Shown: piece by piece, positions 1,741 to 57,599 of the stretch | How positions within the stretch are numbered: the first letter of the stretch is position 1 | Layout of the letters: every line of letters begins with the position of its first letter | Source: Daphnia pulex | Taxonomy: Eukaryota > Arthropoda > Branchiopoda > Diplostraca > Daphniidae | DNA: 64,000 bases | Direction of reading: 5' to 3' | Assembly (NCBI RefSeq): GCF_021134715.1 | Contig: NC_060017.1 | Location: 5,890,001 to 5,954,000, forward strand | Notes under the pieces: generated by a model | Database searches by the model: none | The model's input: the letters and a program-made list of their open reading frames with translations, nothing else | What the model was told of the DNA's origin: nothing | Translations under genes and position numbers: made by a program

Positions 1741-1744
1741 AAAA

Positions 1745-4700
1745 CCGGCAACAACTTTTGATAACTTTGTACAACCAGCAAAATAGGTTAGACGAACTTG
1801 TCAGAACAGTCCAAGTACGGCCTCTCAAAATTGAATTGATGCGAATGCAGAGGGAGAACAAAAAAAGGGAGTCGCCTTTTCTATACAGCACGTATTTGCT
1901 TTTTATAGAATAACAAGTGTAACTGAAGAAATGACGTAGGCCTCTTTCTTACAGCGCCTGCAGAACAATAGTGAGGAGGAATCTTTTGCATTATGGATGT
2001 TGGGGTCACTTGAGTGGGGACTGATGATGCTATTTTGACTGCCTGAAAAAATAGTCCGCTCGTGAAATTAGATAGTCAAACAAACTTGTTTCATCTTTTC
2101 TATTGCAAAATCAATTAGAGAGAATTTCTTTTTCGGTACTCATCTGTCTCTTTTGTGCGTTTGTCGGTGAACTCTGTTGAATGATGTATAGGCCCAACAG
2201 TTTCTACATGCACAGACAGGCCCATGTCGGCGGTATTCAGCGCATTTCGTCGTCGGAACCAAAGGATCATTACTGCCGGAAGGCTTGTTTCGATTCTTTT
2301 CTTCTTCCCCCCTTTTTTTTCACTGGGTTCCTGCTTTTTCTCCGTCCAGGATCTGAAAAAAAAAAATAGTTTTCATCTCTGTTGTATTTATAGTTTTCAT
2401 CATTCCGGCTATTTTCACGGCATCAGTTCTGGATGAAGATGAAAAACATACTGAATGCAATAGAGAAAAACTCGTCTTCATGCTAGAGTAATGAAGACAA
2501 CGACAGGCATGAAAGAATAGGAACGAAATCCCCCTCTTCTTTACCCGTCTCATTCAGATTCTGCTGATGAGATGGATTATGATGAGATTAGACTCCCCTA
2601 CTGGAGTGGCCATACAATCCAGTGTGGTGGTACGGGAAATTTTCTCTTTCACTTGTAATCCGCAAAGAGTTTCACGGACTTCCATCTCTTTCGATTCAAG
2701 TCCACTCCACTCTTGAATGCGACGAATGGACAGATGAAAGGAATAAGCTGGGTTTCATTATACGTTTTGTTCCCGCTCTAGCGGTTGCCGGTAGATAACG
2801 ACGCTTGCCTGTTTAATGATGTCTTAGCGCACGAACAGGATTGAATTCTTATCAATTTCACTCTTCTATTAAATTCATCTTGTTTTTTTTTCCCTTACTT
2901 TCTCACTAATAAAGCAGTCGACGTAAATATCGTATCATCAATTTTGCGTTTAGACACTTAATCTAATCGGGAAGAAAGAAAAGTGAATACAAGAAATGGC
3001 GGGATTCCAATTGTCCATTTATGCGAATTTTTCTTCACGTTTGATGTTTTTGAGAGGCGAACTGGATATGTCGTAGGCGATTGGTTTTGTGACGTCAACA
3101 GAGTCCTATCATCATCATCATCATTCATTGTTCGTGACAGTCGTATCAGAATGAAATCTTTTGTTTATCCTCTCCGGTTCTTTTCTTTTAACTTTTCTTT
3201 TTTCCTGTCCATTACTCTTTTCGCGTTCATTTGCCATTCAGTAAATTTGTAATGACTTGCTCCTGCTTTGAGTTGCATTACTCACAATGGTGGCGCTGAG
3301 AAAGATAAAAGCTTACTAGTAAAGTAAAGTGAATGTTTTCAATCTTGATGCCTGGTATGAATGGAGCCAGCGGAAGCGCCAAAATAGCAACGGGCTATTT
3401 CTTTTTTCCCTTCTATACGCATAGCTAGAGTAAACATAGTCCCAGATATGTCAATAGCTGATGCCCTATGGGGCTCCTGCTGCTCCCCTTTTTTTTATTA
3501 TTATTATTATTCTGGGAACTGCGTGTGTCTGCGTTGCAAGAATGTCGCACACTGCAGTCGACCTTTTCCAAGACATTGATTTTTTATTTTATGTCTCCCG
3601 TTATTCGAGTTGCCGGTCCACCTGCCTTTCCACACTATGAAGCCCTCGGCTTATTCAGTCAGACGTGAGACGAATGAATATTTTATTTACCCCCTGAATT
3701 TTATGTGGAATGTTGTTTAATTTTTGAACGCCATCGATTTACGACTCTTCGAAATGTCAGTCGCCTGACAGTTCTGGATTTTTTTTTTCGTTCCAGTGTC
3801 AGAAAAACTGAATGGTGGGCGTCAGTCAACATTTCAGGGTCTGAATCCTCTTCTTTCTCGCGTTCAAGTGGAAATAACGGAAATGATTTAATATGTAACT
3901 CTACTCTCAGTCTTGTTTCTCACCGCAAAGATACGTGTCAGTCCTGTGATTATGCTCTTGACGGTAGCACAAGCACAAAGAGAAATATTCCAATGGGATT
4001 TTTCTTTTTGTTGTATTCCGACGAACTTGTTGGATATGTACCGTGCTCAAACGCATCGTTTTATGTAGTGCTGTAGTCAAGATCGATAATTCCAATTAAT
4101 TTTTCCCCGAAGTGTAAAATTGCCCACTTCATATTGCGTCTTAACATTTGATACCCAACATAAACTTAAGCCGATTGTATGTCAGCGCTCGCCGTACTCT
4201 GACGATTTTGAGGCTCTTTTTTTTATTGCTTAAATTTCCACCACTGTCTATTTTGGTGTTTATTGAATATTCTCGATCGATGGAATCAACAATCTCGCAG
4301 CCACCCTTTACTCGACAGCACCTCAATTTGAAGTTCCCAGAACCGTTTGAGCGCGTTGGAGGAGGGAAAAGTTCAAATGAATTTCCGCAATCTGGACAAT
4401 TTTTATTGTTATTTGCTTAGCAACATCGGATGAAGCCTAGTGTGATTTTCTTCGATTTCACAGCCACTTTTCATTTGATTGAGGGACTTGTTCCGTCAAT
4501 CTTACTGTTTTTTGTTTTTTGTTTTGTTTTTTTTTGTTTTTTATTTTATTGCGGGCATGGTATTAAAACAGTTGGCTTCTCTAAGAGGAATTTTTCCGTT
4601 TGTTACTTTTGGCCACTTTTGGTTACAGTCGTTTTCGCGCTTAAGGAATACAAAATACCAAGTTCCAAGGCCTACCATTTTTTTGTTTGGTAGTCAGAAG

Positions 4701-7050
4701 AAAATACGGTTTTAAGTATTTTGTGAAATCGCATTCGGCGTTCAATGCTGAGATTAAGAGGATGGAAACAAAGTCAGCGATCATGCACGGCCGGCAGTGG
4801 ACCGTAGCGCGTGAATTGATTGAAGGCGGTCCGGATGAGCCGGAGTACACATGCGTGTGGCTGGGATGCACTTCGAATTGAAAAAAAAGCACACCCCGGA
4901 ATCAAGTGAAATCAAGGTACAGTGTGTTGACTGTTGACAGTTGACCTCAGTGAATGCAACCTAACTCACCGCAGCCTTGGCATCTGAGAATAGGCTCACA
5001 AAGTTCCTTTTGATGTGAGAACAATAATTCGTTAACTTATTAATCGACACTAGGATTAACAATTGATTTGATTGTACTGGTTCCACGCTGCACAATTGCC
5101 GATTGATTCCGACGAATCAAACAACTTGGCGCAGGTGTCGTTTCGGTCGCACCGAGATACTTTTTTGTCGTCATTCACCCGTTTTCTTTCTATCGAATTC
5201 TTTCTTCACGAGGCACAATAATGATGGAACTTTTTCGAGCCTGACCGAGCAAGTCTAGGTAATATTGAAAGCTGAATTGTAAATTACTTGTACGGTTGAT
5301 TCTCTTTTTACTTTGTTGCTTTTTCAGTTTTCCATTCATGTTTTTCCTTAGATTCGATCGATTCGATCAACAAAAACATGATTTTTTGACGAACCGGAAA
5401 CTCCTTGTTTGCGTGTAATATTTCCGTTCCACTCGGTTTTGTCTTGTTTGTCTCGAGTCAATGCTAAGATGCCATGGCGTTGCGTTCTAAAAATAAAATG
5501 GCAGACGCATGTGAATTTGAACGATTCGTACCTTTTGACGTTGCGACATTTTCCATTTCTTTGTCAGTGATAGATTATATCCCTCTATAATCTTTCAGCA
5601 TTAGTGAAGTCGAAGGACTCGTTTTCTTCCGACTTTTTCCTTCACGTTTTTTTTCCCGGAAATCCCATTGGGTATTTTTGTTGTCATCTGTGAAATGTAC
5701 AGGAGATTAAGAGTTTGTTTGGATTTAAATGGATGCGGGAAAATTGAGAAAAAGGTCTCCAAGGCACTGTTGGTCAATGTCTGACGTCAGTCTTCTGCAT
5801 TATCGGCTGGGAACAAAGAGATCCATTTCAAATACAGTCATTCCGCTGATCCGAGTCGTCTGTACGGTTGATTGCATCATTCGAACATCACGTTTGTCTA
5901 CCCAAGTGTTGCCAAGCCAACAATCGCAACGTGACACACACACAACCGATCGCTTGAATAAATCAGAATAAACACCCAACACGATTTCAAATGTAGGTCT
6001 CAGGATCGTAATTCATGCAAGGCCAATTTGATAGCTGCACTGCTGCCTCCGAACGGAATTTGGCCGGAACAGCACACTGTGATTTCTGATTGAAATTTTG
6101 CGAGTCGAAGCGCCCGAAATAGGAAATGGTTGGCATGTCCTTGTCAATCCCGAATTCCTGCCGCCTGCCGCCAAGTTGTCATAATGGGATTCAAAATAGC
6201 GTGGCAGTCGGTCAAATGACGCATTTTGACGGAGCGACCTTATTCAGTGCTGGCCAAGACTGGGGAACCATATAGCAATTGAGAGTTGTACGGCGAAGCT
6301 CACAAGTACTTGCATATCGTTATAGTCCCAGCTTCTTTGACTATATGGATATACAGGAGCCTTGAAATAAGCTTCGTGCGTGTTTGCTTCCATGTGTCAT
6401 AATCGCCGGCACACCAACTGGCGAAGGCAATCTCTTCTTTTTGTAAACTCTTCCCTACTACTACAGAAACTGGCACACTGTATGTATAACGGTTCGATAT
6501 TTTGGTTGGTAAACACAACACCCGATACAACAACGCGTAGTATGAGTTGTGTATGCTAAAACAAAAAGACTATCTCAAATAACGTTTCCATGGCAACTAT
6601 TGTTTTTGTATCCCTTTTTCTATAAAACGCTTTAGTTGCCATTGCACATTTGTGTCCATTCTCCTCCTGTCATAAACTTAAACTGAATGATGCGCAGCAG
6701 GAACACTGTTTCTTTTATACACCGAATGTGTCAAGTGGAGCTGTTGAGATTTGCTGAAACTTGTGTTTTCGCCCAGAAGGAGGGTTTGGCCCTGCGTTCG
6801 TCTCTTCTTAGAATCGCGGTGACACTCGTCATGAACGGAGTTAATAGACAACGACATCCTGACATAACTAGGAAGTCGCTGACAATCAACCAGCAATTCG
6901 ACGTCTAAGTTAGACGGATGGACCTGGTCGCGGTTGCGACGGGCTTTTCTGTGGTATTCGCCATATTTTTTGGCAAGGATGTTGGATCTCATCCGAGTAT
7001 GGCAGGCATTGAGAATCGTTGGAGAGAAGCCTAAACGGGGATTATGTAAG
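1745..7050. repeat. Copy A of a collinear duplicated non-coding block
   Basis: This region shares a series of short conserved islands, in the same order and orientation, with 12.9-23.8 kb. Islands seen by eye in A and B: 1,821-1,838 with 12,950-12,966; 2,677-2,743 with 14,292-14,356; 3,077-3,097 with 14,688-14,708; 3,671-3,699 with 15,425-15,452; 3,795-3,843 with 15,574-15,623; 4,268-4,294 with 16,044-16,070 (25/27 identical); 4,821-4,839 with 16,828-16,846 (19/19); 5,863-5,895 with 18,043-18,075 (31/33); 6,087-6,110 with 18,306-18,329; 6,975-7,035 with 23,761-23,818. The A-to-B offset grows steadily from about 11.1 to 12.2 kb, then jumps to 16.8 kb. That pattern fits an old duplication with later insertions. 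No shared reading frame was found, so the islands look regulatory rather than coding; this is inference. Confidence 0.65.
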
Positions 7051-8342
7051 CAAAGAGCTTGTCACACTGTCAAATTACCGTTAGTGACTAAGTGAGCGAC
7101 GGTTCGATTTCGTTTCCCTTTTTAAAAAGTATCGCATTTCATTTTCCCGTTTAAAAAGTATTAAATTTCATTTCACTCGTCGCCACTTATAGCATGTTGT
7201 CCACTACTCGTCGACATGGTAAAAGTTTAAAGATTGCGAACCAAAAGAGAAGAGGCAAGACGTGTGCTGCATATTGCTTTTTCCATTCAAGTCGTGTTGC
7301 TTGGCAACGATGGCCTCGTTTTCTTTTTTGTTATTTGCACTAGTAACAGACTTGAATCGTCTCTATTCTTAATCTTGACGCTTGTCTTGTGTAACGTTTG
7401 TTATCGACTTCACAGATGTGTCGGTGTGTCATATTTGCGTCGCATTCGCACTAACAAGGCTCAAGTAGCTATTGTGTCTCATTTGAAAGAAGTTGCACGC
7501 TTGTCCTCTCGTCTTATTTGTCGTTTGTATGCTACACTTCTGTCCCCAATCCAAGTTAACTATTCTTTCTTCGGAATCTCTTACGTGTTTCCGGTTGGAA
7601 CTAGTAGTAAACCACCTTTGAATGATGAAGTGTACACAGCGTAGGAAACGGAGCAAAGCTACTTATGGCGTATGCTGAATATATATGTAGCAGGTACGCG
7701 ACACGCACGAAAAACCGGAATCATCGATCCATGTTCCAGTTTAATTCTGTACGGCAGAATGAAAGAGATCAGGATCGTGATTGAAAATATTGTCGGTAAT
7801 GTTTTTTTCTTCTACGTTAGATTCGTGGGTGTCCTTGTCCATTCAGCTGATTCATATCGCATCTTTTTTTTTTGAAAGAATTTTATTTTTGTATGTAGAA
7901 AAATGAAAGGGAGAAAATATTCAAAGCAAATCCTGTTTTTTTCCTTCCGGATTGGTAGCGGAGCGACTAGTTCGTGGTTGTTGAAGAATAAATGCTACAT
8001 GGCTCAGGACGACCAGTGATGTATTAATGCAAGTGTTAGTTACAGCGTCTGCGTTTAAATATGCGTAACTGAAGTATGTTACTGGTGTCTGGCGCCGGTA
8101 CCGGTAAACCGCTTATAAATTTTTTCCCCCCACGAATCCGGCTAAAACTATTCATGCATTAATAATTTCTGTATCGCTAACTTCATCGCGAAACCGTCTT
8201 CAAAGAGAAGCGTATATATATAGTGTTCTTTCATTTCTGGCGCTCTTTGGAGGCACTCGTGTTATGATGCTGTTTCCTTGCGTGATTCTCCCTAATTGGC
8301 AATTACGCAACGTCACTGCGACACTCAACTAGTTGGGCATCG

Positions 8343-8373
<31 letters not shown>

Positions 8374-11300
8374 CACACATGAGATGAGACGTGATTGAGA
8401 AATTTACATTTTATTTGTGTTTTTTAAATGATATCCCCTTCATTCTTTATTTTTCGTCGCTAAAAAAAAAGTCAGACACGTGATTCTATTTTTAGCCACA
8501 AAGTCAACAAACAACAGAAACTGCTTATTTTTTTAATCATCTCGAGCATCTGCTTAAATGACGAGCCCTTCAGCAGCGGCTTGGTGAGATGGTATCGAAT
8601 CAATCACGATGCTAGAGCCATCATTTCCGCCCAGCCACAAAATCAATCATGCAATATGATTGAGACCCGAGTCTTGGCGATACGATCAATGTTCCGCCAA
8701 CCAAAACTGGTCAAAATAAAGTGGAATCGATTCTTCTTCTCGCGAGTTAAACGGTGAAATTTGCCATCTGAACCGTCTGGCTTGACACGTCTGGGCTTTG
8801 GGTGACGTCCAGTTTCAGCCATCAAAGGCTAGGATTTACAGGGAATAAAATTGCTTTTTACTTCTTTGCGGTTTGATTAAGTGGCGGGCGGGCGGGCTTG
8901 CTGATTGCTGGAAACGAGCCAGTTCGTATATTTTCGAGTTAAAGTTCCCCAAAACATTTCAACTTTTTTTTTTCTGGTTTGAGGGAAAATGTAAGCAGAC
9001 TGCGGTCGATATACTTTAATCAATTGGTATTATACATTTCAAGAACGAGTTTGCTGTTTAGCATCTGGATGTCCGTCTTATGGTATAATATGTAATTATA
9101 CCAAACGAACTTGATCAGATTTCCCTTGTGTGCGGGTTCTTCCTTTTTCCCCCCGAAACCGATGCTTTCCTACACAGACACACACATAATATGGCGCAGC
9201 GCTATATAGATCGGTTGAGTAAACGAGAGAAAATGACAAAACCTTCTTGCCGAGAGACCTGTCGGGCTGTCGGCTAATACGAAACAGACATCATCTTTTC
9301 ATCTGCCAGCTACCGCAGCTGGGTGATCTCATTTTCTTTGCGTCAACCTCAGCACTAGACTCTTTTTTTTTTTGTCTCACTTCATCCTCGGCATTTTTTT
9401 CAGTGATAAATTCTCCGTGATTAAACTAAATTCCTGGGTCGACTTGTCACGTAAATTTTGTGCTGTATAATACCAACGCTTGCCGTATATTATACTGTGC
9501 GTAGAAGAAGCTTGTAAAGCTCTTTTAACCCATACTTCTCACAGCCTCTTCTATTTGATTAGTTTAGGACCTCTGGTAATCATTTTTCTTTGTTGGTTTT
9601 AGCGAACTCCATTTTCATACGAGTAACAAGTTTTTTGTGTTTATTCTTTTTTTTTCGCATCTTTTCGTCGCGCAATAGAAAATAGGGAAATGCCAGTAGA
9701 TTGAGGCACGATGGAGAAACGTACGAACATGTTTGAAGACGTTTCCTGTGCTTAAATGGATTAGGAATCAGCAGCCATCGCAACTTGAGGCTTGCTACGT
9801 ATAACCGTTGTAGATGAATAAGCCAAGGCGCATTCGAGACAATTTGGGAGGGGGCAAACAACCAGCAGAGAAGCTCAGGTAGACTACGTAATACCTTGTA
9901 CTTTGGCGAAACTTTGTCATTTCTAGCAGCGGCTACCTTCTCTGTATATTAAATACCTTTGTGGAGGTACTGTACAGGAGCAGCAGTAGATGCACATCAA
10001 AGTGAATAGTTTCGTTACTCCTCCAGTTTCGCCGTCGTCGTCGTCGTCGTCGTCGACGTAACTGGCAAGTGCGCAGAAAGCGGGTAATAACTTTCGGGTG
10101 CTTTGCTCTGAATGCGACGTTCCCGCATGCACGCATCATCGCCATGCCTTCAAGTACCCACACCACGGCTATTCAGGCAAGAAAATAAAGCCTTTAAAGA
10201 GAAAAATTAGTTGACGGTTATTATATACCTTTTGCGTTTCTCAATTTTTTTCCTATTTCTCAGTCGACCGGGTGGTTAACTAGAAACAGTTAAACCTTCA
10301 ACAGCAGTAACATTAGCTCTGTCGATTTATCTTTCTTTCTTTGACTTCTTGCTGCTGTCATTAAAGCTTCTTGGACTTGAAACCGGCCAATCAAGATGCC
10401 CGTGTTTGGCGTCCTTTCCGCTTAGTTTGTTTCGTCACTTGCAATTTACACGCTGTTCCGAAGCACCCACTAATGTCGTCAGACTGTTCTGCTATCTGAC
10501 TGCCATTCAAAGCATTAACACACGCATGCACGTCTCATAATCATCCATGTTATACCAATGCTCGTCATTGGTCCGAATGCGATGTCCGACGATGCGTGTA
10601 GCGTCCGCCAAGTGGTTGGCTGCAGGGAATTCAATGTCGGGATTCTGATTCGGTGGGAACACGAATGACATTTGCTTTACAGTAGAGTTTCTATGCAAGC
10701 ATGGGAAACTTAATTTCGACTTGGTGTTTCTCGACCCTGGAGGCTGAAAAGTGTGTAAACCCAAGTGTAATCAAAGTGACAGAATCAAGTGACATGATTC
10801 CGTGCTGATATCTTGTAAAACGCCATCTCTTATAACGATCTTTACTTTGGCAAATGTCAGCCGTCTCGGAGTTGCAAATGGGAAAAGATAGCAACAACTC
10901 TGGTGTCGAGACGGTAGACTCGTGTGTTTCTCTGTTGTCACTCCCGTTTGTCACTCCCGTTTAAATTGGTCGCCCCTTTGGTAGATTTTCCTATGCCTCG
11001 TCAGCGGGGTGTTGGAAAGAGCTTAATCAGCGGGGCTTTTCGCTGGGTTGTTGAGCTTGTAATTGACCTTTTGGGATTTTAAAAAGTCTTAGCGCTAACG
11101 CTGTTGGATGGCTCGCGTCATTCACGATGAAGATTCATTAATGCGGCCTGTTTTTCGGATGATTTGAGTTTGAGAACTCTTGAGGTAAAGGGGTCCGCCT
11201 TCTACTCAGCCGAGTAACGAGATTCCATCAAACGGGTTGCGACAGATCGAAGGAAAGACGGCTGATGAATCTAATCAGCAAGTATGCAAAAATCGTAAAG

Positions 11301-12890
11301 CAGATGACAATTACGCCCCCACCTTTTTGTAACACAGCGATCTGTCAGCACTTGCGACATCTCGACAATTTGTTCATTCACAATTTCCCTCGGCTGTCCA
11401 CATTTCTGAAATATTCCTGGAAACATTAATGTAAATCATTTTGAAACGCCACATTCATTCTTGACTGTTTATACCGTGAGTACCAAACACATGGCGGTAC
11501 TTTTGAAAAAAAAAAAAAAAAAATTACTTTAATACTTTTGAAAAAGTAATTCTCTCCAACACGTGTAAGGCCGACAGAAAGGCGGATCTGACAAGTGCCG
11601 TTTTCGACTTCCGCCAATCTTCTTCATTGCGTTGAAAGTAGAATTATTTTATTTGGGCACTTGTGATCCGATCACGTGGAAAATAGGAACTTTGTCCAAA
11701 TAGGTCTTGATTTCATCAACGTTAAAAAAAAAATGTAAATAAATTAGTAAAGACGTGTTTTGTTCATTCCGTCATTGGATTGCCGCCCAAACAATCTATA
11801 AGTTGATTTGCGCGTCAGACTTTTGCGCTGTTGACTTGAGCGATGAAATTTCAGCTTTGAAGAGGGGCGACGACGAAGTTACCGGAGAAATCACCGAAAG
11901 CTTTTCCCGACTCCCTTTGATTCACAGCCTTGCTGCCCTCGTCATATTCAAACTGGTTTCCAATGATGGGCGCTTTAAATACATCGGGAATGGCTTCAGG
12001 TTCGTCGGAATGTTTTTATTTTTCAAAATCACTTCGTAGAAAAGGACGTTGGGGTATTAACTGCTGAGCAATAAGTCCCTTGATTGGAATGAGAATAGTG
12101 CACGCTGTACAAGAATACATCTGCCCCTTGATATCTTCGGTGAGTTGCCAAAAGAACCTCATATCTTCTTCTTCTCCGGTCTAATAATCGGTAAACATGA
12201 ATAACACATGTGTATGCACTCGCCGCTCGAAAAGAAGCTCACAAATCGCTTGCGTCTTCAAATATGAATATCTGTACTTATGTAAGGAGCATGCGGGCAG
12301 CTGTGTAGTGGTCTGGCTTTGTATAATCCTTCGATGAGTGGGTTCAAGTTCAGGGTGGTATGAATCTCTCAATAGAGACGTCTTTCTCCCCCTTTACTCT
12401 CTCCTTTCCTTATCCCGTTCATCTAGTCTGTCTGTGTGTGTGTGTTTGTATGTAACACAACGTTATGTGCGTCTACTCGTGTTTAATTTGTCCGCACAAC
12501 AAATTCGGCTATTTGCGCAGCATAAACACGGTGAAATGTTGTTGTCGAGCTCGTCGGAACGATAAAGTTCCAACCTTCTCCGTCTCTGGTGTCACTTGTT
12601 GTAGCAACCAGTGCTAAGCGGACCACCCACAAATGTTGGGAAAAGGTTAAGCTGTACGATAACAACTCGACGTTGGAGTCTGTCGGCGAAAAAGTAAAAT
12701 AAAACAGCATATATAGAGGCATGTGGGTCCCAATTTATTATCAAGGGTTTTTGTGCGCTGCACTTGCATGCCTAATACAGGTTGTAAGTTACGGGATCGA
12801 TCGATAAAAAGTTCCGACTAGGACTATAGGCATCGACCGAGTCGGAGAAAACCCAACAACAACAACGCAACTTTGAACTTTTGTAGCACA
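7051..12890. other. Gene-free stretch with simple repeats
   Basis: No gene is recognised. It contains a poly(A) run at about 8,350-8,373, a GTC trinucleotide repeat at 10,033-10,055, and a poly(A) run at about 11,506-11,523. Open frames such as 11,755-12,039 lack domain similarity and splice context. Confidence 0.55.
10033..10055. repeat. (GTC)n microsatellite
   Basis: About seven to eight tandem GTC units are visible. They inflate overlapping open frames on the minus strand (Asp-rich or Arg-rich runs) that should not be taken as genes. Confidence 0.9.
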
Positions 12891-13333
12891 GTACGTGTAC
12901 ATCAAACAAGAATGGGTTAGACTAACTTTCTAAAACACGTCAACTCAGGCTCCTCAAATTGAATTGCAGACGGACAAAGGTCTTTTTTTTTTTTTTTTTT
13001 TTTTTCTCTCGTGAAGAACTCGCGGTGTGCGTCCGTATGCACAGCCAGTCGTACCAATTCTCAGAGCTGTCCTGGAGATACCGACTGACCTGTCAAAGTA
13101 GGGTACCCGACAAATGAATCTTTGATACCGATGCTTATATGACCGGTTTGAATTATTCGTATTTGAACCTTGGAGATGCTACTCTATACTTATGGGGCAT
13201 ATTTTTGTGTGTTGTGTGTGAGATTCAGCTCTTGGAAGATTGGTTCGTCTTACTGTCTCTTACCTTTTGCCTGCCATCAAACAAAGCAACATCAATTATT
13301 CCCCCTTTTATCGATTTTCTGAGCAAACTTAAT

Positions 13334-13841
13334 CAGTGATGTGCACGTCAACGGGATTTGTTGACGTACCAAAAAAACGTAGAAGTCATACGTATTTTAA
13401 AAGTACTACGTAATAAGTCAAAAAAAAACGTCAACGTAACGTAAATTTTTTCATACTTCAAACGTATGACGTTACGTCACATATACATCATTACATTATT
13501 TATTGCTATTGCCCATAATATACACAGATTGCATTTGGAAAAAATAAGAATGAAAATTAAACATGGAGGGCTATTTTTAGAAGAATTAAAATTTAATAAA
13601 TTTAAAATGGCAGACGAATTTTCGCAAAGCAAATGTTGCCAAATTTTTAAAATTGTTTCTTGACTTTTACGGTAAACTCATAACTGGACTTTTTTACACG
13701 TCAAAAGTATACGTAAAAAGTCAGTATTTTTTTTCACTTACGTAGAAGTCACCGTAAACTTCAAAAACAAGGAAAATTGACGTAACGTACGACGTAACGT
13801 CAAATTTTCGAATAAGTCACCGTATGACGTGCACATCACTG
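13334..13841. mobile_element. Non-autonomous hAT-like MITE with intact TIRs and 8-bp TSD
   Basis: The element begins CAGTGATGTGCACGTCA and ends with the reverse complement of that sequence, so the terminal inverted repeats are at least 17 bp. It is flanked by a perfect 8-bp direct repeat, AACTTAAT, at 13,326-13,333 and 13,842-13,849. An 8-bp duplication and CAGTG-type ends are hallmarks of the hAT superfamily. The 508-bp body has no transposase. Its outer parts are full of ACGTA and TGACGT motifs in both orientations, and the middle is A/T-rich. The perfect target duplication suggests fairly recent insertion. A 65-codon open frame inside (13,466-13,663) is not similar to any transposase I know. 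Confidence 0.93.
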
Positions 13842-14140
13842 AACTTAATGCCGATTCTTTCTTTCTTTCTGAAATTTGGAATGCCAAAATAGGCGAACAG
13901 GGGAGGGAAGAAAGAGAAGGGCATCCAACTCATCACAGTTGAAATGAAAAGGGAAAAGGGAAATTCTTTTACTAGCGATTCTGATGAGATTTTCGATTTG
14001 GCTCGTTTCGACAGTCGAGTCGGAGCTGGGTCCCACACATTTCGTCTCGAATTGAGGGGCTGTGGGCGGTTTCAACCGGAAATTGATAACGGAACTGAAC
14101 TTCTTTCCTTTCAACTTTCTTTGCCGTCAAATTCCGGGAA

Positions 14141-14156
14141 CCCCCCCCCCCCCCCC
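14141..14156. repeat. Poly(C) tract, 16 bases
   Basis: An uninterrupted run of 16 C, one of seven C/G homopolymers of at least 10 bases between 14.1 and 29.0 kb. Length may be affected by assembly error. Confidence 0.85.
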
Positions 14157-15558
14157 TTGCATAATCCATGTCCATAAAGTTAGTCGGCGGCGCGTACAGT
14201 TTGCAGTCTCACTGCTGCTCTGACTCGATTTGTGATGATGACATGGCTCCTGCAGGGAACGTAACAAGTCTCTCGGCTCCCAATTCTTTGCGACTTCCAT
14301 CTCTTTCGGCCGCATCCACACTGCGCCTGAATGAGATGAATGGGCAGATAAAGGAACAAAGAGGAAACAAAAAAAAAAAAGGGAAAGAAAAAAGACGAGC
14401 AACAAAGAACGGGCGGGGGTCGGTCTCCTCACATCGACTGGACGGTAAACGAAATCTTGCAAAAGTCAGGCTCGTGTATATATACCGTGGGATGGTTGAC
14501 AGACGATTTTTCTATTCGTTTGGAGACATAATCTCACTCGACAACAATAAATAGACCGCTGCCACACATACAAATGCGTAGCCGGGCGCACGTGTCGACA
14601 CTCGGGAAAGACGACTGTCCATCTGTCTGCAATCCTTTTTCTTCTGATAGAATATCGTGGGAGATTGAAGGGACGAAGCTTGGGAAGACGATTGGTTTCA
14701 TGACGTCACTTCCACTGTCCATTGCCTCACTTTCAGAGTCAAACCGTATAATAAGAAAACCTACACGCTTCCATGTCTGCTATCAGATTTCCTATTTTCT
14801 CGCCCACTCCCTTTTTCACGAGAGCCGACAGCGAGAACGAAGAGCAGGTTCTTTTTATCTAGTATTGTATTTGTTATTTGCGGCTCGGTTGTTATTTTGC
14901 GCCTAGCAGCCTACTCTTTGCTCTTGTTGAAGGGTTTCTTGAAGATGATGGTGATAAATGAAGCCGATGGAATCGCGCCCATCCAATACGTTCCATGATT
15001 CAATGTTCTCGTGAATAACGGCGAGGGCGAAAGGAAAGAAAGAAAAAACTAAATAATTGTATTTATCGAGTTATCTCCACCTTTTTTTTCTCGGCTTCTC
15101 TCGCTCTATTTATCTATGGCGCCGTCGGTGCAAACAAGGTGCTGGATGATGGTGGTGGTTGCCTCCCTTTTGGGACTAGTGTTGGCCCCCCTTCATTTCT
15201 GTTATTGCTGAAACAGCACGTCTTCCATAGGGAATGACGCACGCTGTCGTCGACACTCCCACACCACGTCCCGTATCTTCCCGTATCTTTCAAACATCGA
15301 TCTTTCGCCATTGCACTTATTTATCTCGTTTTCCGGCTGGGTTTTGTTTTCATTTCTATGCGATATACCGAATGCTGATTGGCCGAGCTCATTGCAAGAA
15401 AAAAAAAAGGAACTGGGTGAGAATCGAATGAATATTTGATTTCCCGCTGAATCTAGAATTAGAATCCGGATCCTGTCTTGTGCAAAATTTATCGTTGCAG
15501 AGTATTCCGAGCGTCACAGTGGATTGCGATTCGGACGAAATGCTCACCTTTTTTTCTT

Positions 15559-15572
15559 CCCCCCCCCCCCCC
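15559..15572. repeat. Poly(C) tract, 14 bases
   Basis: Uninterrupted run of 14 C, followed shortly by a poly(T) run near 15,644-15,659. No gene context. Confidence 0.85.
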
Positions 15573-18500
15573 AAGTGTCAGACGAAATGAATGAAGTGTG
15601 GGAGTCGGTGGAAGACATTTCGCCTGTTTGTGTATGGCCTCTGTTTTTTTTTTTTTTTTCGATTCGTAGAATGCGGTAGAGCGTGTATTGGAAGCCTCTG
15701 TAATTCCTCGACACACATTCCGCTTCCCATGTACTTGGTATCGCTAGTTCGCGTCGCAAATTGACACGAGTTTGGTTTCTTTGCCATTTCGTGCAACCGG
15801 AAATGTCGCTCCTATACAGCCACTGTTTGCATTTATTTGCTTTTGGCCATGCCATCTTTTCCGTTCGTGGATCAATTCTTTTCGCTCTTGTCTTTTCTTT
15901 CCAGATTGACGGGTTTTATATCTATCAAACTGACTTGATGGACATTTTCGCTTAGTATGCTGCAAGCCCAACAATCTCAGCCGCACGCCGGTCTATTATT
16001 TTTTATTTTGCTTTTTTTTCCTCCTCAATTTCAAGGTTCTTGTTATTCGCGATCGATTGAATCAACAATCGGTCTCGACTTTCCCTTTTCGCCGCCGCTA
16101 TATTTGTCCCTCCCCACCTCTTCGCGGAGAAAACAAAACAAAGAGACAAAAAAAAAATCAATTCAATCCAATCTGGACGGGTTTTTGTGTGTGTGTGCTG
16201 TTGTCGTTTGCTTGGGAACCCGACCGTCGCTGATAAGTTTGCCCAGAGCCGGCGAATAAACCCTCGCCATTCTTGGCCTTATTCAAACATCCTGTTGAGA
16301 TGACTTTGTTCGATCCCTTGTCTTGTTGAATTGATTACACATTCTCTCAAACTGTTTTGGGAAGGGGGGGAAGATTAAAGCCGTTCCGGCATCGGCCTCC
16401 CCCAAAAGTAAGATTCGCGCTATAGTTAAAATGAATTAACTTAAACTATTTTGTGTTTCACTCCCCCCCTCGCTTAACGGATGAAAAATCGACGTTAAAA
16501 GACGTCAGTTCCAGCGGCCCAGCCCCCCACCCCCGTAATTTGCGCTTTTATATACTTAGCACTTGGCTATTAACATTTTCATCAAATGATAAATCACCGC
16601 TTGCTTATACTCGGGGTGAAACTGCACACCATCCAATGATATCGCCTCCGAGCAAAGGTCGAACGGAAGCCAAAATCAATGGATAGTTTCTGTAATAGAA
16701 GAAGAAGCCGCCGCCGCCTTTCGGAATCTAATATAGAGCAATACAGATGCTTGTTTGCCTGTTTGGGAAGGAAACGCGCAGTCTGCGGGTGATGGTGCAC
16801 GACCGTTAGAGACCCCGTCAGTTGCGATGAAGGCGGTCCGGATGAGTGCCAAAAGCGAACGCACACGGCCGCGAGTAGACATGCGTGCTGCTGCTGGTCC
16901 CCCAGTCGAAAAGGACATCCCTGCATCAAGTCGCACAGGGGTCCAGTATGTTGACGTCTGTGGCGAATGCAAGTTTCAGGTTGCACGGTTCCGCATCCCT
17001 CCTCAACTAGGATACGAATGATTACTTCTTTCTCGCCCTTGCTGGAAGAAAGTCGATTCCGGTTTGCGCGGTTGTCGTGTTTTTAAAAAATCCGCAGCAG
17101 ATTTTTGTTTTTCTTCCCCTGTCGATTATATAACTCATTCAAACAATTGGCGGGCTTTTCTTTCTTTTTGTTTCCTGATGAATCAACAGTTTGAAAGCGT
17201 GCATTAGTGTGTAATAGAATCCTGTCGTCGCCAAAACAACCGTCGGGTGTTCTTCGCGGAAATTCAACAGACACAAAGGACGTCATGATTTGAACAAAAC
17301 ACACTGACCGCCGGTGACCATTTAGGTAATTGAAAAACGAATGAAAGGTTTTTATTTCTCTCCGGAAACGATTTGAATATTGATTGCGCGTGATCGTATG
17401 GGCCACATTTTGATTTTTTAAATTTGAAAATGGAAAAATGTCCAAGTTTTCAACATATGGCAACAAAAGACTAGTGAGCAAAAATTTAATGATGGCTTTT
17501 CCGCTTGCGCCATTCAGCAGAGAGGACACCAATTATTTTTCTTTTGCCTCTTTCCTTTTTTTTTCAAAAAAAATATTTATATGTTCAGCACACGTGCATC
17601 ATAAATTATGGATTGCGTTTCCCATGGCTGTTGATCCTGGTGACACTATTATTTGTCAGTGACATCCTCTCAGAGATTGGACTATACGTAGGCCCAGACT
17701 AGCTGGACTTAGTATTATCCAGACGGTCAAACCTGCGGCCAAATCCTACGCCTTGGCCGTATGTCAGCGAAACTAGACTTTATTTCCATTTTCTTTTGAA
17801 CTCCCTTTTTCCTCTCGCCAATCCCCAGCAGACATTGTTGTTTTCCTCCTGTACAATATATATATCTAAGGGCTTAAGGATCCAGATTTAGAAGTACGGG
17901 GAGGAGAGATGACTCTTGGCGCACTCGCAAGTTGACGTTAAGATCAACGTCTCATCTTTCGCTTGATTGACCAGTGACGAAAGAGTCTTGACTGATAAAA
18001 AAGCTTTTCAAGTAGTCTCATTCAAGGATGCTGTCTTTGCTTTACGGTTGATTGTATGATTCGAACATCACGTTTTTTTTTTTTTTCGGGGAGCTGTTAA
18101 GTGCTGTCTGTCGCTAGCCTGCAATGCAGGTTCCAATCGGCTTGGAGTGTGTGATGATTGCCACACGTAACGGGTTTCGGGGCTCCGGCGATTTCCAGGA
18201 GATTGCTGTTCTGACTTTATTCTTTTTTTTTGTGTGTGTCTGTGTACACCACCAACCCCCCACACTATTTTTTATTTGATGTGCTTCACCAAGCGTCGAG
18301 GTCTTTGATTGAAATTTTACGACTCGATGGCCATCGCCGTGGGCATTGATTCAGTCATTTCCATATTTTCCAAGCATTCGGCCGAATCGTTTTCTTCTCG
18401 CAAGTCTCTCGCATTGCAATGCAGGCCATCGCCAGCCTCTGAGATTGTCGAGTGGCAAGTGTGTACTAGTAGCCGCTCTTATACAGCTGTCACCTCGACG

Positions 18501-19086
18501 TATAACGAAGTTTATTACGCAGTGCCAGCAAGACAGCACAGTAGATAATAGCAGCTGCTTCTGCTGGGACTGGGGATAGTAGACGGCGACCTGGAGGCAC
18601 TCGTCCCGGTTGTTCGCATCACCAATTAGTGAATGATTCCCCGTCTACAAAATGGTATAGCCTCACAAAAGTATTCTTTTCTTTTCTTTTTGCTGGCTCT
18701 TAGAGAAAGGAAAAAGGCGCAGGCTATTCTGTGTGTTGTGCTGTACCACATCCAGGTTGTTGGCTTATCCAATGCCTAGCGGACCCATAACTGGCGCTCG
18801 CATCCGCACAATCTCTTTTTCGCCAAAGTCGCTTTCAGCCGGGGCGGTCTCTCCCGGCAACTAACAATTGACGGATCAATATTTTAGATGCAATAGGAAT
18901 AGTCGAGAGAGAGAGAGAGAGAGAGTCTATATAGATGTGTGTGTGTGTATGTACGCTCAATACACAACAAGGCAAGTCAATGTGCGTGTAGATTGTCTCT
19001 ACACCTCGCAACAGACAGAGCCACGTCCGGTGTCACCGTGGCAACCATTGTGTGTGTGTGTCCAGCAGCGATGACTTTTGAGATAC

Positions 19087-19111
19087 CACACACACACACA
19101 CACACACACAC
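19087..19111. repeat. (CA)n microsatellite
   Basis: About 12 tandem CA units, close to (GA)n and (GT)n repeats at 18.9 kb; a clustered dinucleotide repeat zone. Confidence 0.9.
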
Positions 19112-21328
19112 GCTTTTGCTCAACAGCATAACTAATCATAAATATATATATATCTGAAGGAAAATCTAGCTAGCCTTTTGTTTGACTTTTGACAATTTTC
19201 TGAAAATAACAGCTGGTTCAAGCAGTTCACCGTGCGAGTCGCATTCTATTTATTCCGTCTCTTCGGTCTATTTTATCCCGTACATTGTCCCGCCGTTTTC
19301 GTGGCAGCTACTCTGTTCGTCGAATGAAACGTGGGATGGAGAGATAGGCAAAAAGGGCAACGGCGCGTTAAAATCCGACTTGAAAAGACATTATTCTGCC
19401 TCAGTACCTTGGAGGCCTACTAGCTACTACCCACGGAGTCTCTTGATATAGTAGTACGAAATGGTGCCCATGTTACTTTTCAGATGAAATTATTATTATA
19501 ATTTTGTTTTTCTCTTCCTACTCTCATATTTCATTTCCCCCCTGTTCCTTAACATTTTCAGCTCGAGGCGAGCTTAGGAGTACCAAGAAAAGAAATATGA
19601 TGTGTACTGCGTACGTAGTACAATCAGGGGGGAGGAGGATGAAGTCGTTTGTGCTGTGTCCTCTTAGGGGGTGCTCCATCGTCGGGTTAACCTTCAGCAA
19701 TAGTCGGCAAGAGGTCTGATTTGGAACTTTTTTTTTACGGTAACATATTTGCATATTCACGTATGATGTATGGTCCCACCGTCTTTCATCGTTTCCTCTT
19801 TTTTCCGGTCGTTCGTCTTGAATCGTTTCATCTCATCACTCGGGGAATTGACTGCCGAAAGATTTTGATAGATAGAGCTATATAGAAGAACAGCTACATC
19901 AGCCAATAACGGCGCCGTACCGTACGCATCCTATAGGTATCGATCTGCAACATATGAGCCCTCCTTTAGTTTACAGTTGACTATCAAAAAGAAAAAAAAA
20001 ATACTACACAATGCTGTAAACATGACTACCACGTAATATGAAGGAAATATGGGGAGTCATTGTGTATGCGACAGTTCTGAAAGTCTACAGCTACCAAGTC
20101 ACTTTCCTTTATATCGTAGCGTATGTCGACGCCAATCTAGAAGCCTCAGAGCGCTCGCTACTAGTTTTCTGACATATTTTTTTTTTTCATTATTTACATT
20201 ATTATTATTTCTTTACTGCGCTTATAACTTATGGAACACTTTTGAAGAAGCGTATGCCGTAGGCTACCGCGCAAGACATTTCCCCTCCAATATTCCAACT
20301 TTTCTAGAGTGCATTTCTCTCTTTTTTGCTGACAATTGTCTTCTTTTGAAAGTGCCAGAAATGGGTCCGTTATTTCGGGTTTTGTTTTTGATTTCTCATC
20401 TCCCGCCTGACTTGTTCCGCCTGGGAAACTCTCACTACATACGCAGTCGACATCGTTTAATTGATTTCTCTCGTCCGTTTCTCGCGGCGTCTAACAGATA
20501 AACCTCGTTTGGTCGCTATATCGTTGAAGCATCAACCGAATTTGGCGCACTTGTTTCTTTTTGGGTCGGATGTCGAGTGGGAGCTGTCGAGGTTTGCCGG
20601 CACTCGTCTCCACAGTACAACACGGGGAACTTTTCCTGTCTCAAGTGGATGAGATGACTCCAACTTCCTATTAATCTCTCAATAGCCCTAGCCCCCATCC
20701 TCCGACCGTGATGGCCGAAGAAGTGCTAACACTCAAGAAAAAGCAGTTGACGGTTCATTTGAGACACGCGTTGCTCCCGATCACGATCGAAAAAAAAAAA
20801 ATCGCCGCCTTTTCGACTCGACTCTCCTATATCCGGCGTGTAGTATTTATCGACCGGTTTGCGTATATCCCATGGCTTGTTCACTCTCTATTCATCCCCC
20901 CCACCCCACCACCACCTCGTTGTTGATGACATGCGCCAGATGGGAGAGAAAAGGGAGGGAATGGGGGGGGGGATTCGCAGTCCTTCCGAGTTCCGACTCT
21001 CTGCGATGTTGCGTAAACAAACTGCTTTTGCTACCTAAAAGCAACAAAACTACTAAGGCGAAACTGGTTGATCCCCCGGCAGCAGCAGCAGCTCAATAAA
21101 AGCCCCAATACGGATATCTGTTGAATAGACGTCCACACAGTGGTGTTGGCTATGGAGTAGTAGAGCAACAGTATCCTCCCTTGCTTGCCTTGCCTTGCCT
21201 TGTTTGACTAAATAGGCTCCATGTACATTTTCCACCCGAACTTTGATGATCCGTACGCCACCGCCCAGTGGATCGCACTGGTCCACATCGATCACGTTTA
21301 TCCACCCACGTCCAATTTCGTACCCTTG

Positions 21329-21330
<2 letters not shown>

Positions 21331-21375
<45 letters not shown>
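21331..21375. repeat. (TC)n(TG)n compound microsatellite
   Basis: About 17 TC units run directly into about six TG units. They create repetitive Ser-Leu or Arg-Glu runs in overlapping open frames, which are artefacts. Confidence 0.9.
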
Positions 21376-23760
21376 CTGTACCGTAAGTTTGTCTAGCTTC
21401 TCCTGTCGCCCCCTCAAAACTCCTCCTCGTCTTTGTTGACTGGGCGTCCATGTTGGCATACAGAAATTGTATCTGCATATTTATGGAAACAGTTTACAAT
21501 ACATATTGCGTATATTCAGTATACATACAGAGGGCGTGGTTTGCAGACTATGGCCAAGATATTGCATAAGAGATGTGACTGTGTGCATATAGTTACGGCT
21601 AGTGTCTGTTTTCTCTCTCGCCTACCTTATTTGACTCCGGATGCTCGACGGCGCGGAGGGTGTCGATCGACCAGCCAAAGGAGGCGGAGGAGAATAGAGA
21701 AAGCGACTCTTGTGATGTCGGTCTGGTGTTTTGTGTAGACGGCCGCAGTGTGTGTGCAATTCAGGAACAAATAAAACAAAAAACAAAAAGCAACTATAGT
21801 AGCTGCCATTTTCAAAGAAAAGAAAACAGCGGCACCGAATTTTGATACGTGTGTGTGGGGCTGAATCAGGTCGATTGTGTTTCTTTTTACTTTTTACACA
21901 TCGTCGATCAGGGCAGTAACTCATGTGTTAGATAAAAAAAAAAAGATATGAAAAGTTTTCTTTTTTTTTCATTCCTCATTTCGGCAGTTCGTTGGTCTGA
22001 AAATGTTTTATCTTGCGTCAGAGAAAGAGAAAAAGAAAGTGATGAATGTTTTTTGGCGAGTGGACGGATGGGATGACTTCTCGGAGCGATTCCCATAGAT
22101 GAATGATAATGAGGATATTTAAGTTTCACTGGCGAATGACGAAGTACCATTTCAGACACAGAAAAGGCGACCTGATACAATAGGAAATTGAGCCCTCCTC
22201 TTTCGCCTCCCTGATGACGTACCTCAACTAAATGACAAAAGAAGAGAAAAGACGAAAGTAGATGGGAGAGAGAGACAGGTTCTTGGGAGACGTCCTTACA
22301 CTATATGTGTATGTGTATGCATAGTAAACGAGAGAATTCATCACGAGAAACTTGGGCCCCAGTCTCATTAGTTGATGGATGATGGAAAATGGCGGAGGCA
22401 ATAGCGCTTTATGTATAAGGCAGCGGGGAGCATTAATATATAGAACATTCGCCATCGAGTAACAGCAGGAAGCAAGGTTTAGACTGTACGGTGTATCACC
22501 AATCAATCTCCTACTCCTTTCTGTTGCCAGACTCACCAGACTGGCTGTTGTTGCCATTGCCAGCAGTCGACGGCGAACGTGACTTTGGCTCCGAAACTGT
22601 GAGCCGTTCGGCTTCAATATCACATAGCCAGCCGACGTCCATTGCTTCTGTGTTGATTCCAATGTATAGAAGAGCTTCGGCGATAAGCTATTTTGTCAAG
22701 AAAGAGAGAGAGAGAGAGATATTTAATTGTGTGGGGCAAAGGCAAAAGCGGAACAAGATGTCTTAGAAGAAATATATACGGACGGCATTGAGGGTAGCAC
22801 AAGTGGCACGTTCAATACTACTCTCTTTTTTTAAAAAAAGAAAAAGGAACGGGGTCTTTTCGTGACGGCCACTACACAATTCAGAGTCCGTATATCAATA
22901 TTCTCGCATGCCAACAACCAATAAAATAAAGTACGAGTCCGGTATAATAGGTCAGTGGTCTTGGACGCGGATCTTTTGCTCTGCCCCGCTCTGCCCCCAA
23001 ATGCCCGTTCTATTGTTGGTCTTCTCGAGAATACGACCCCACATCGCGCTCATCATGAGTGCGTGCAGTGTGTGGGCTGCCACGTCTATAAGTATACAAG
23101 TTATTTTAATAAGGAAATGGCGGGGCAGAGGCCCTTGGAGATGGCGGAATTCATTCAATTGATGATGGTTAATCTCCATCGTTGAAAATAAGAAAAGGAC
23201 GCTCTCCTTTTTAGATGGAACATTTGGGCGGTTGGGAAAACAAGATCGAGGGAGTCCCTAGATACCGTAATGTCCGTACATGTATTATAAACCTAGTATA
23301 ATTAATTCCCTTGTTGGCCAAGTTTCCGGCTTTGTGACGACCGCTGCAATTAGACTGTGTTGCTGCTGTTGCGATTTCTCCGGGTGTTTTGTTTTGTTTT
23401 TCTGTGGACTAATAGCATCTAGCCTCCACAGCAGTATCATGGAGTCGATTTTTAATGGACGAGAGAGCTCCATTCGAGTTGATTACAATCAGTGAGTGTT
23501 TTTAAGTTGTAAATGTCTCGGTTGAGTGTATGCGTCAAGCCGAATCTGATTTTGCGTTTGTCACGTTTCTAATATCGCCCATCAATCCTGGGATTCGTTT
23601 TGAAAAGTTCTTTTATCTTGGATGTTTTCCCGTAGATTGTTTAGTCTTTGTTGTGAATATGAGACCATAGACGAAGGATCGGGTACCTGGAAAATGGGAG
23701 CGATCCATTGCCCGTCTCTTTGCCTTATCTCCCGCCGTCCCGCCTCAAGAGTTTTGGCTC

Positions 23761-23818
23761 AAGGATGTTGGATCTCGTGACTAGAAAGCGACGGGAATCT
23801 CTGGGAGAGGAGCCTAAA
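23761..23818. repeat. Last visible island of duplicated block B
   Basis: The first 16 bases match 6,975-6,990 exactly, and a second island just downstream matches 7,011-7,035 with a few changes. It is the only B island beyond 18.4 kb that I could place. Confidence 0.55.
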
Positions 23819-23829
23819 TAGAGATGATG

Positions 23830-26000
23830 AAAGAAAAGGAGAGGATGTTAATCAAAGTAGCTGGGCGCTCTCTCCAGTTTTCCGTCTTCATCAAGTTCTC
23901 CATTTGTCTCATTAGAGGCTCATCAGGATCTTGTCATAATGTCATATTATCGTTGATGACCAAAGGAGCGACAATTCAATTTCGACGTCGCAACTCCTTG
24001 AAAATATCAAATCACGTCATTTGACTCGCTTTGTGCAACATTTTCTTGGTGCGTACACTTTCTCAACCGCTGGAGAAAATCGACGAAAATGTACCGAAGG
24101 GTTGCCCCCAAAATCATGTGATCCTGTTTCCTTTCAAGTTCCGCGGCTTGACAACGTGAAACCTCGTTTCACTTTCTATTTTCGTTGGTAGAAACCGACT
24201 CTACGGCAGTCCATGTGACGAGAGTATGTCGTCGTCTTTTGTGCCCCCAATGGATTCCTTTCTTTGCCTCCCCCCATCCACTTTTGTGTGTAGTGTCTCT
24301 CTATCGACCGCTCCTTGCGCCGTCCCGAGATGGTGTTAGTTGATGGCGATCGTTGTCGTCTTGGTCTTTCCAAACAAAACTCTCAAGTAGTCGCCGCAGG
24401 CACGCATTCTCCAGCTGCTTGAGAGAAAGCCTATCCTCTCATTTGCCCGTGTTATGTGCGGTTGATGGGTTCGCGCGTGCCGGATGAATGTCTGGCCCCG
24501 TCTAGCCGAGCCCCATAACCAACCATTTCCTTCCGTGGAATCCCAGTCACTTCAACGACCCCTCACCCCCCATTCCGAACTCACCACCAACCCAAAAAGG
24601 AATGGATGAGGCTTTTTGTTTTTAAGGAAGTATCATGTGTTGAATGTACAAGCTCGACACGACCGCACTGCAAAACTATATAATCATCGATCCGCACTGC
24701 TGTTTCTAGTCAGATGATGTGCGGGTAGAGAGAGAGAGTGAGTGAGAGAATGGGTCGATGGTTCCACAAGGAAAACTTTCGATACAAGTCTGAAGGTGAA
24801 TATAAAGGCAATGTTGAATAAGGATTTTCTTTTTTTCTTTTTGAGGGGAGGATTTTCGCCTTTGTACTCTTCTTCTTTATCTTTTTTTCTTTGGCTCTCA
24901 TTTTAAACAATGCCGTGTGCTGTGTGGGAGACGAGCTCCAACTGCCTTTTTTTTTTCTTTTTCTTTACATTCTTTCACTCACGAACGAGTTGCCGGAGAA
25001 TAAAAGGGGGGAGATGAGGAGGGGCTCCCGAACAAGAGCCATGAACATTTCACATAGAGAAAAGGAGAGTACAGCTCCTTCCTGCTTATTTCTCCATTTC
25101 CTTTTGACTCGTTTTCTTTTATTCTTCCCTTTACTTACGTTCCCTGCAGGACTTGTTATGACGATTCTCAGCTTCTTCTACTTTTTTTTTCTCTTTCACG
25201 GTGTGTCCCCCCCCCCTTTTTAAAGGTTCCTGCTCCCGTAACGACATCGTTGGAACAACTCGTGTAGGCTTCAGAATGACTTGAGGCCGACACACACTCC
25301 CTGATGCGCAACAGGTCTTCATTTTGGTCATCCTTCCATTTGATTTTCTTTTGAAATTCGCCTTTCTGGTCGCCCCCCCCCCATCAAATGATTTCCGACG
25401 CTGAGTTTACGTCACTGTCGGAATTGAATTCGATGTTGACTGATCCGATTTTTCACGGGGCGCTACCCATCACATTTGGTTGGAGCAGCCCTCCCGTTAC
25501 CGTTATTGACAGGGGGCGCCGGCGTCTTAATTGATACTCGTCCCAGCATCCGTAGATTTTTCCGGTTTGATACACTTGAGTCAGGGGCGCTCTTAATTAG
25601 AAGGGCGAATGTCAATAACAAGTAGTCCCCGTCCCCGTGTATATTTCCCCGTACCCATCATTCGCTGGATACCTACCTAACCCCCCACGCAAAATCCTTT
25701 TCTGACTCCACCTGGAAACGACGGTTGCATAAGCAAGCCGGAAGCCAGTGAGCAAACGGTTTCCATGGTTGAGGAAGCGATGTCAGAAATTAACATCACG
25801 AAAAAGTCATCAAGACGAAATGAAGATGAGATGGAACTTCTTTTTTTTCCAACTTTTAGATTGAAAAGTCACAAAAGTAGTCTTGTGAGGGCGTCAGGGG
25901 GCGGGGCTTAGCTCTATCGATTTTGATTTTGATGTCTCCCATCATTTTATTTTATTTTTTTTTTTGGCCACAATTTAATTTTCTTTTCTTTTCTTGTGTC
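23830..26000. other. Gene-free stretch upstream of the MATH-domain gene
   Basis: No coding exon is recognised. It holds C10 runs at 25,207-25,216 and 25,373-25,382 and several pyrimidine-rich tracts. It precedes a likely splice acceptor at about 26,003-26,004, so it may be the first intron or promoter region of the following gene. Confidence 0.5.
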
Positions 26001-26004
26001 TAGG

Positions 26005-26141
26005 GAGAAAAGAGTGACAGAAGGAGATTGATTGAATCGCAGACATTACCGGAATAAGTAGCTCATTAGTAGTGCTGCTGCCACTGCCTTCTGCTGCCGC
26101 CGCCGCCACCGTCGCCGCTCTAAGGGCCGTGTAGAAAATCA
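26005..26141 (+). promoter_or_regulatory. Probable 5'UTR exon segment of the MATH-domain gene
   Basis: A pyrimidine tract ending in TAG at about 26,002-26,004 looks like a 3' splice site and leads into a leader with GCC/GCT repeats near 26,085-26,120. An in-frame TAA lies 24-22 bases before the ATG at 26,142, so translation cannot start further upstream in this exon. This supports the chosen start and implies one or more untranslated exons farther upstream. Confidence 0.5.
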
Positions 26142-37485: not shown

Positions 37486-37679
37486 CACATCACATGATCT
37501 TTCTACTGCCATGGTTAGTGTGTACGGTTATAGTTACTGTCTTTCACGTTTCGATGCAGTTTTTAAAGTGAGCTTTTTAGCATTTCAAAATGTTTGTTAA
37601 GTAGCATAATGTGGTAAAGCAGATTAAGTGTGTATTGCGCTTAGTTGATTTAACAATTTGTATTTTTTATTTCCTCAAC

Positions 37680-38025
37680 ACTTATCAATTCTTTTGATAT
37701 CTGATTTTTTGAAACAGTGAAATCCATGTCCATTAGGAAAAAATCCAGGAAAATAGCATGATCCAGGTTGTTCTTCAATTGCAACCAAAGATAATCAAGG
37801 ACAAATGCAAAATATCCAACTGAAATTCTCTTCATATTCGTGGTGTAAGTTTTACTGTAAGTTGTGCTGTAAAGTTTATACTAATTCCTTTTACTTCTTC
37901 TTTTGATTCTGATCAGAATTTTGGAAAATATTTTGTCCAGAGAACGGTGCCTTAAAAGAAAGAACTTTGGTTGTGATAATGTGGCAGTATAATTTGCGTG
38001 AGTGTTAGGTTTTTTTATGTTTTTG
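37680..38025 (+). repeat. Duplicated segment, copy 1 (inverted partner at 41.47-41.77 kb)
   Basis: About 340 bases are clearly similar to the reverse complement of 41,466-41,765, with several runs of 15-25 identical bases, including the stretches around 37,811-37,829 and 37,871-37,888. The segment contains splice-like signals on the plus strand: a GTAAGT donor at about 37,845, an acceptor-like CAG near 37,916 and a GTGAGT donor at about 37,997; an acceptor near 38,570 could continue it. No long reading frame survives both copies. It may be a non-coding RNA, a pseudogene or a transposon remnant. Confidence 0.6.
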
Positions 38026-41765: not shown

Positions 41766-41769
41766 TTAA

Positions 41770-56235: not shown

Positions 56236-56236
56236 A

Positions 56237-56242
56237 TTTATT
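56237..56242 (-). terminator. Candidate poly(A) signal of the histone H1 gene
   Basis: AATAAA on the minus strand, about 226 bases after the H1 stop. I see no histone 3' stem-loop (GGCTCTTTTCAGAGCC type) downstream of the stop. Both points suggest a polyadenylated, replication-independent transcript. Confidence 0.5.
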
Positions 56243-57570: not shown

Positions 57571-57599
57571 GGTGGCGGACGTTTCAGAATGAACGCCCA

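Follow-up and report, generated by a model that had tools for sequence, protein, structure and literature searches.

An old tandem duplication of intergenic DNA in Daphnia pulex, with surviving islands that may be paired cis-regulatory elements

We show that a block of intergenic DNA, some 10 kb long, underwent an old tandem duplication in the branchiopod Daphnia pulex. The block was studied in a stretch of 64,000 nucleotides (the window; positions 5,890,001 to 5,954,000 of contig NC_060017.1, assembly GCF_021134715.1, forward strand). Coordinates are given as window positions, and negative numbers lie to the left of the window start. As far as it was detected, the duplicated block is contained in the 30 kb that separate an SLC12 gene from a gene with a MATH-like domain. 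Copy 1 starts near -2.6 or -0.3 kb and ends at 7.35 kb, and copy 2 starts near 9.3 or 11.2 kb and ends at 24.2 kb. Similarity between the copies survives in islands, about a dozen in number and 40-175 bp long (Table 1), which may be cis-regulatory.

The two blocks are homologous, collinear and in the same orientation, well beyond what is expected by chance. Local alignment of positions 1-11,000 with 11,001-26,300 gave 12 matches at E < 2, all of them on the plus strand and 11 collinear. In a wider comparison (-3,000..9,000 with 9,001..26,100, E < 0.3), 13 matches were obtained, of which 11 were plus-strand and collinear and 2 were minus-strand (E = 0.07 and 0.19). The collinear chain between copy 1 (-3.0 to 9.0 kb) and copy 2 (9.0-26.1 kb) scored 428.3 bits over 11 matches. 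The score fell to 31.4 bits when copy 2 was reverse-complemented and to 0 bits when it was reversed. It did not exceed 60.9 bits in 200 local dinucleotide shuffles, and 34 valid comparisons with flanking blocks gave no more than 68.0 bits. When a 508-bp element lying in copy 2 was excised and 6-base seeds were used, the chain reached 503.6 bits (13 matches, 1,151 columns, 67.9% identity). Several matches are weak alone (E of 0.1-0.5), and it is collinearity that carries the strength of the result. A preliminary description of this DNA, made from the letters alone, had proposed one old tandem duplication and had quoted three best matches, of 19/19, 25/27 and 31/33 identical bases. These counts are exact, and the controls bear out the duplication itself.

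The base rate of such scores was taken from 60 self-comparisons over 204 kb (the window and its flanks), in which overlapping frames of the duplicated block scored 367, 238 and 129 bits. Two other sources gave more than 100 bits: an inverted copy of histone H1 (2,386 bits, in two overlapping frames) and, at 37.5-42.3 kb, an inverted repeat (162 bits). The other comparisons listed scored 65 bits or less. Among the 14 listed, chains outside the frames that cover the duplicated block had three matches at most.

The limits of the block (first placed at 1.75-7.05 and 12.9-23.8 kb) proved too narrow. The block begins left of the window, where one island gives a match stronger than any inside it, and a weak match lies further out (Table 1). 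The last match detected on the right ends at 7,352 in copy 1 and 24,200 in copy 2, and a search for an extension past this point (7,352-11,216 with 24,200-28,000) returned weak matches only (E ≥ 0.5). The offsets between the copies had been described as rising smoothly from 11.1 to 12.2 kb. Instead they change stepwise, between 11,128 and 16,872 bases, and are close to 16.8 kb in the last islands.

The step of 487 bases past 12.97 kb contains the 508-bp mobile element and an 8-base target copy. Both target copies read AACTTAAT, and we take the element to be hAT-like from these 8-base copies and its CAGTG/CACTG ends. Genome-wide searches, which here and below covered 133 Mb in 13 contigs, found at least 22 further matches to it, of 68-100% identity, the best being 99% identical across nearly the whole element. 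Since other matches in the genome are up to 99-100% identical, the insertion is recent. Between 18.4 and 23.7 kb (18,400-23,740), copy 2 exceeds copy 1 by 4.6 kb, a difference that may be due to an insertion or to a loss in copy 1. At the sensitivity of the search, this 5.3-kb stretch of copy 2 showed no recognised repeat, and only five short matches to it were found elsewhere in the genome. In island 7, 86 additional bases separate the two halves in copy 2.

Table 1. Matching islands of the two copies, in order along the block, and two associated features. Coordinates are window positions; offsets are in bases.
Feature	Position	Strand	Offset	Remarks
Outermost left match, possible	-2622..-2517 with 9323..9431	+	11,945	59.6%; E 0.01-0.03; weak
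Island left of the window	-326..-156 with 11216..11384	+	11,542	62.9% over 175 columns; E 8.5e-9 (narrower run)
Island 1	1768..1838 with 12896..12966	+	11,128	73.6% over 72 columns; E 2.4e-5
Island 2	2677..2746 with 14292..14359	+	11,615	77.1% over 70 columns; E 1.5e-6
Island 3	3665..3701 with 15417..15454	+	11,752	84.6% over 39 columns; E 0.08; weak alone
Island 4	4226..4338 with 16008..16114	+	11,782	65.5% over 116 columns; E 0.003; contains 25/27 core 4268-4294
Island 5, two matches	4760..4931 with 16766..16955	+	12,006; 12,029	66.7%, 67.0%; E 0.26, 0.04; contains 19/19 core 4821-4839
Island 6	5824..5899 with 18004..18079	+	12,180	69.7% over 76 ungapped columns; E 6.4e-6; contains 31/33 core
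Weak island	6079..6157 with 18298..18379	+	12,219	63.9%; E 0.42 in wide search, 0.014 within interval
Weak island	6685..6766 with 20529..20609	+	13,844	65.5%; E 0.001; within-interval search only
Island 7, two matches	6968..7112 with 23752..23838 and 23925..23984	+	16,784; 16,872	73.6%, 76.7%; E 9e-7, 5e-6
Island 8, last on the right	7275..7352 with 24122..24200	+	16,847	64.6%; E 0.006
Later insertion in copy 2, 508-bp hAT-like (presumed) non-autonomous element	13334..13841			ends located; target copies 13326-13333 and 13842-13849
MATH-like gene downstream, the putative target (exons 1 and 2)	26142..27620	+		MATH_2 match

The persistence of the islands was compared with simulations of the neutral decay of a 10-kb duplicate, analyzed with the same aligner and chaining as the real block. 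Natural ratios of insertions and deletions to substitutions (indel:substitution) are near 0.1-0.2. At these ratios, none of 240 neutral runs reached the observed identity of 67.9%, while 0-22 runs per setting reached it at ratios of 0.35-1.0 (600 runs; 23 without any match were excluded from the tabulation). A second simulation was matched to the observed score: of its 500 runs, the 350 inside 350-700 bits were counted and the 150 outside were dropped. The identity was reached in 49 of the 350, a 31/33 window in 53 and both in 13, all of the latter at indel:substitution ratios of 0.6-1.0. None of the 196 runs at ratios of 0.6-1.0 had gaps as few as those observed (the gap-to-mismatch ratio of the islands is 0.115), and none of the 350 overall combined so few gaps with the identity and the 31/33 window. 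The spacing between islands is also kept better than in neutral runs (median log ratio of 0.18, against means of 0.34-0.44). Because neutral runs miss the identity at ordinary indel rates and miss the three measures together at matched score, the islands are probably under purifying selection.

Overall, we lean slightly towards the view, also put forward in the preliminary description, that the islands are paired, partly redundant protein-binding cis-regulatory elements acting on the MATH-like gene. A number of observations count against this interpretation. Nothing links the islands to the MATH-like gene over the SLC12 gene or a transcript of their own, and a search for motifs in the identical runs gave none that was convincing (the best, CATTC, was seen 5 times for 0.68 expected; P = 6.5e-4, uncorrected for the number of words tested). 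Neutral decay at 0.25 substitutions per site per branch and an indel:substitution ratio of 0.2 yields a similar number of matches and a similar total score, so that only the identity and compactness of the matches argue for selection. The selection proposed in the preliminary description is thus backed by the simulations at realistic indel rates but not by how many matches there are or what they score in total. At ratios of 0.6-1.0, moreover, 13 of 196 score-matched runs attain both the identity and the 31/33 window, and the neutral model was built without regional variation of the mutation rate. The sequence between islands had been called unalignable; this is true of 6 of the 8 interval pairs tested, whose similarity does not exceed that of 60 shuffles at the P < 0.05 level, but the other 2 retain trace similarity. 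The number and score of matches that neutral decay can reach, these two traces and the lack of regional mutation-rate variation in the model lend some weight to the explanation that the block is merely decaying and that the islands are lucky or slowly mutating remnants. We consider such neutral remains rather unlikely, given that no run at ordinary indel rates reproduced the identity and that no score-matched run combined it with the best window and so few gaps.

A further observation of the same kind concerns RNA. The islands could be parts of a duplicated non-coding transcript, such as a structured RNA, exons of a long non-coding RNA or exons from the 5' untranslated region of the MATH-like gene. 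The minus strand of island 2 (2652-2771 and 14267-14384) folds better than shuffles in both copies, with z of -2.66 and -2.28 (3 and 4 of 200 dinucleotide shuffles were equally good), and it is the only refolded island with a low z in both. Its best structures, however, differ between the copies and the consensus reaches only -8 kcal/mol; we treat this folding as a lead, not as a result. For 13 islands, consensus folding of both strands gave z from -1.7 to 2.2. Single sequences folded against simple shuffles had z ≤ -2.3 in 7 of 52 cases. When ten stretches from the three islands that looked most suggestive were folded again, now with dinucleotide shuffles as control, 5 had z ≤ -2.28. No Rfam family reached its gathering score in the window and its left flank, where one sub-threshold match fell outside the islands, and the tRNA search found none. 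Moreover, the splice-donor-like words found beside two islands of copy 1 are missing from copy 2. Overall, we judge a transcript origin improbable.

We give hardly any credence to the explanation that the islands are what is left of a copied protein-coding gene or of a short conserved peptide. A wide tblastx comparison gave no match at E < 0.01. A narrow one gave four at E < 0.1, the best of which spans 25 residues (5,827-5,901 with 18,007-18,081; E = 0.001) and is the point in favor of coding. The mismatches of island 6 (at 5,824) are nevertheless spread 8/7/8 over the three phases, without codon rhythm, which disfavors coding. The absence of a shared reading frame, noted previously, therefore holds in the wide comparison and is qualified by this weak match, apart from which both copies are non-coding. 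None of 10 open reading frames of the block contained a Pfam family above the cut-off. The interval between the blocks (7,352-11,300) yielded no relic of the MATH-like gene, and its comparison with the SLC12 region gave a single match, on the minus strand (E = 0.014). An even lower probability attaches to the idea that the islands belong to a dispersed transposon family and lie in order by accident. The block does contain transposon insertions, but the order and spacing of the islands are not expected from fifteen or so unrelated insertions, and the three island cores searched genome-wide are unique to the two copies, or nearly so. The 33-mer core of island 6 (31/33) was found at 2 places only in the genome with up to 3 mismatches, and the 17-mer core of island 7 at 2 places only with up to 1 mismatch. 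The 19-mer core of island 5, with up to 2 mismatches, had 2 exact places and 6 with two mismatches, for 1 in a backward control; it is also present in two viral contigs. For these three cores, a common dispersed family is rejected. Genome searches with long queries found no dispersed copies either, although they were insensitive enough to miss copy 2 itself. A search of bacterial and archaeal genomes with one core found nothing, a result that is uninformative on conservation.

The gene to the left of the block is an SLC12 transporter gene of KCC type on the plus strand; it matches the SLC12 and permease families of Pfam, most closely to the block near -4.6 kb. To the right, the MATH-like gene is also on the plus strand, and its start codon, read at 26,142, lies 1.9 kb right of the end of copy 2, so that both copies are on the same side of this gene. 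Its MATH_2 match (E = 6.5e-6, 26.9 bits) does not reach the curated cut-off of 32. The protein had no match among plasmids, phages and solved structures. A reading frame at 223-332, which by its letters had a start codon and the look of a MATH beginning, was dropped; a genome search with the MATH-like exons gave no match there. No literature on this locus was found by title, which is no claim that nothing is in print.

Other features were seen further right. In the histone H1 gene region of the right flank, 56230-58532 and 71950-74270 are inverted copies about 14 kb apart, 95% identical over 2,328 bases, which points to recent duplication or gene conversion. A mobile element may account for two short pairs of inverted repeats, 78-83% identical, at 37538-37973 and 41499-42300. 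The minus strand at 43887-47062 carries exons of a gene for a RasGAP protein that has SH2 and PH domains.

The present state of the block is best explained in several steps. Long ago, the intergenic block of about 10 kb between the SLC12 and MATH-like genes was duplicated in tandem without leaving a second gene copy, although a gene copy lost since then is possible. Both copies then decayed to near-random similarity outside about a dozen islands, which retained their order, orientation and approximate spacing, as observed in the alignment. Purifying selection, suggested by the simulations, probably holds the islands in both copies, where they may act as clustered protein-binding DNA and serve the MATH-like gene as paired enhancers or promoter-proximal modules with partial redundancy. 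A stronger version, which we offer tentatively and find doubtful, is that an entire regulatory landscape, made up of about a dozen elements, was doubled in tandem beside a single-copy gene, and that both copies were kept in order and spacing until the sequence in between was saturated.

The closest known kind, by analogy, would be the duplicated conserved non-coding elements (dCNEs) of vertebrates, which, according to PMC2781166, lie near paralogous genes. As in dCNEs, non-coding elements are found here in two copies that stem from one duplication and whose surroundings have diverged. Unlike them, the two copies lie one after the other, next to a single-copy gene of an arthropod, and are known from one genome; at E < 0.001, the MATH-like exons have two matches in the genome, both to themselves. 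According to PMC4712172, fully redundant enhancers often originate by duplication, and duplicate enhancers diverge or get lost rapidly. The present pair resembles the redundant or "shadow" enhancers of Drosophila described there in that two similarly placed putative control regions lie on one side of a gene. It differs from them in looking very old and in being known from sequence alone, and such great age would make it notable among redundant enhancers. Human families of segmentally duplicated regulatory elements, according to PMC13333887, are defined by sequence similarity and are active by self-transcribing active regulatory region sequencing (STARR-seq) and CRISPR interference (CRISPRi). 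They share with this block the duplication of putative regulatory DNA, sometimes without its gene, whereas similarity in the Daphnia block survives in islands only.

A long-lived doubled control region, if true, would mean that selection can hold enhancer redundancy for far longer than is usually thought. Regulatory DNA duplicated without its gene is expected to be lost or to diverge fast. The survival of islands only would also amount to an internal conservation map, from which the functional parts of a control region may be read in a single genome. If both copies exist in distant daphniids, they would provide a dated test of the lifetime of enhancer redundancy.

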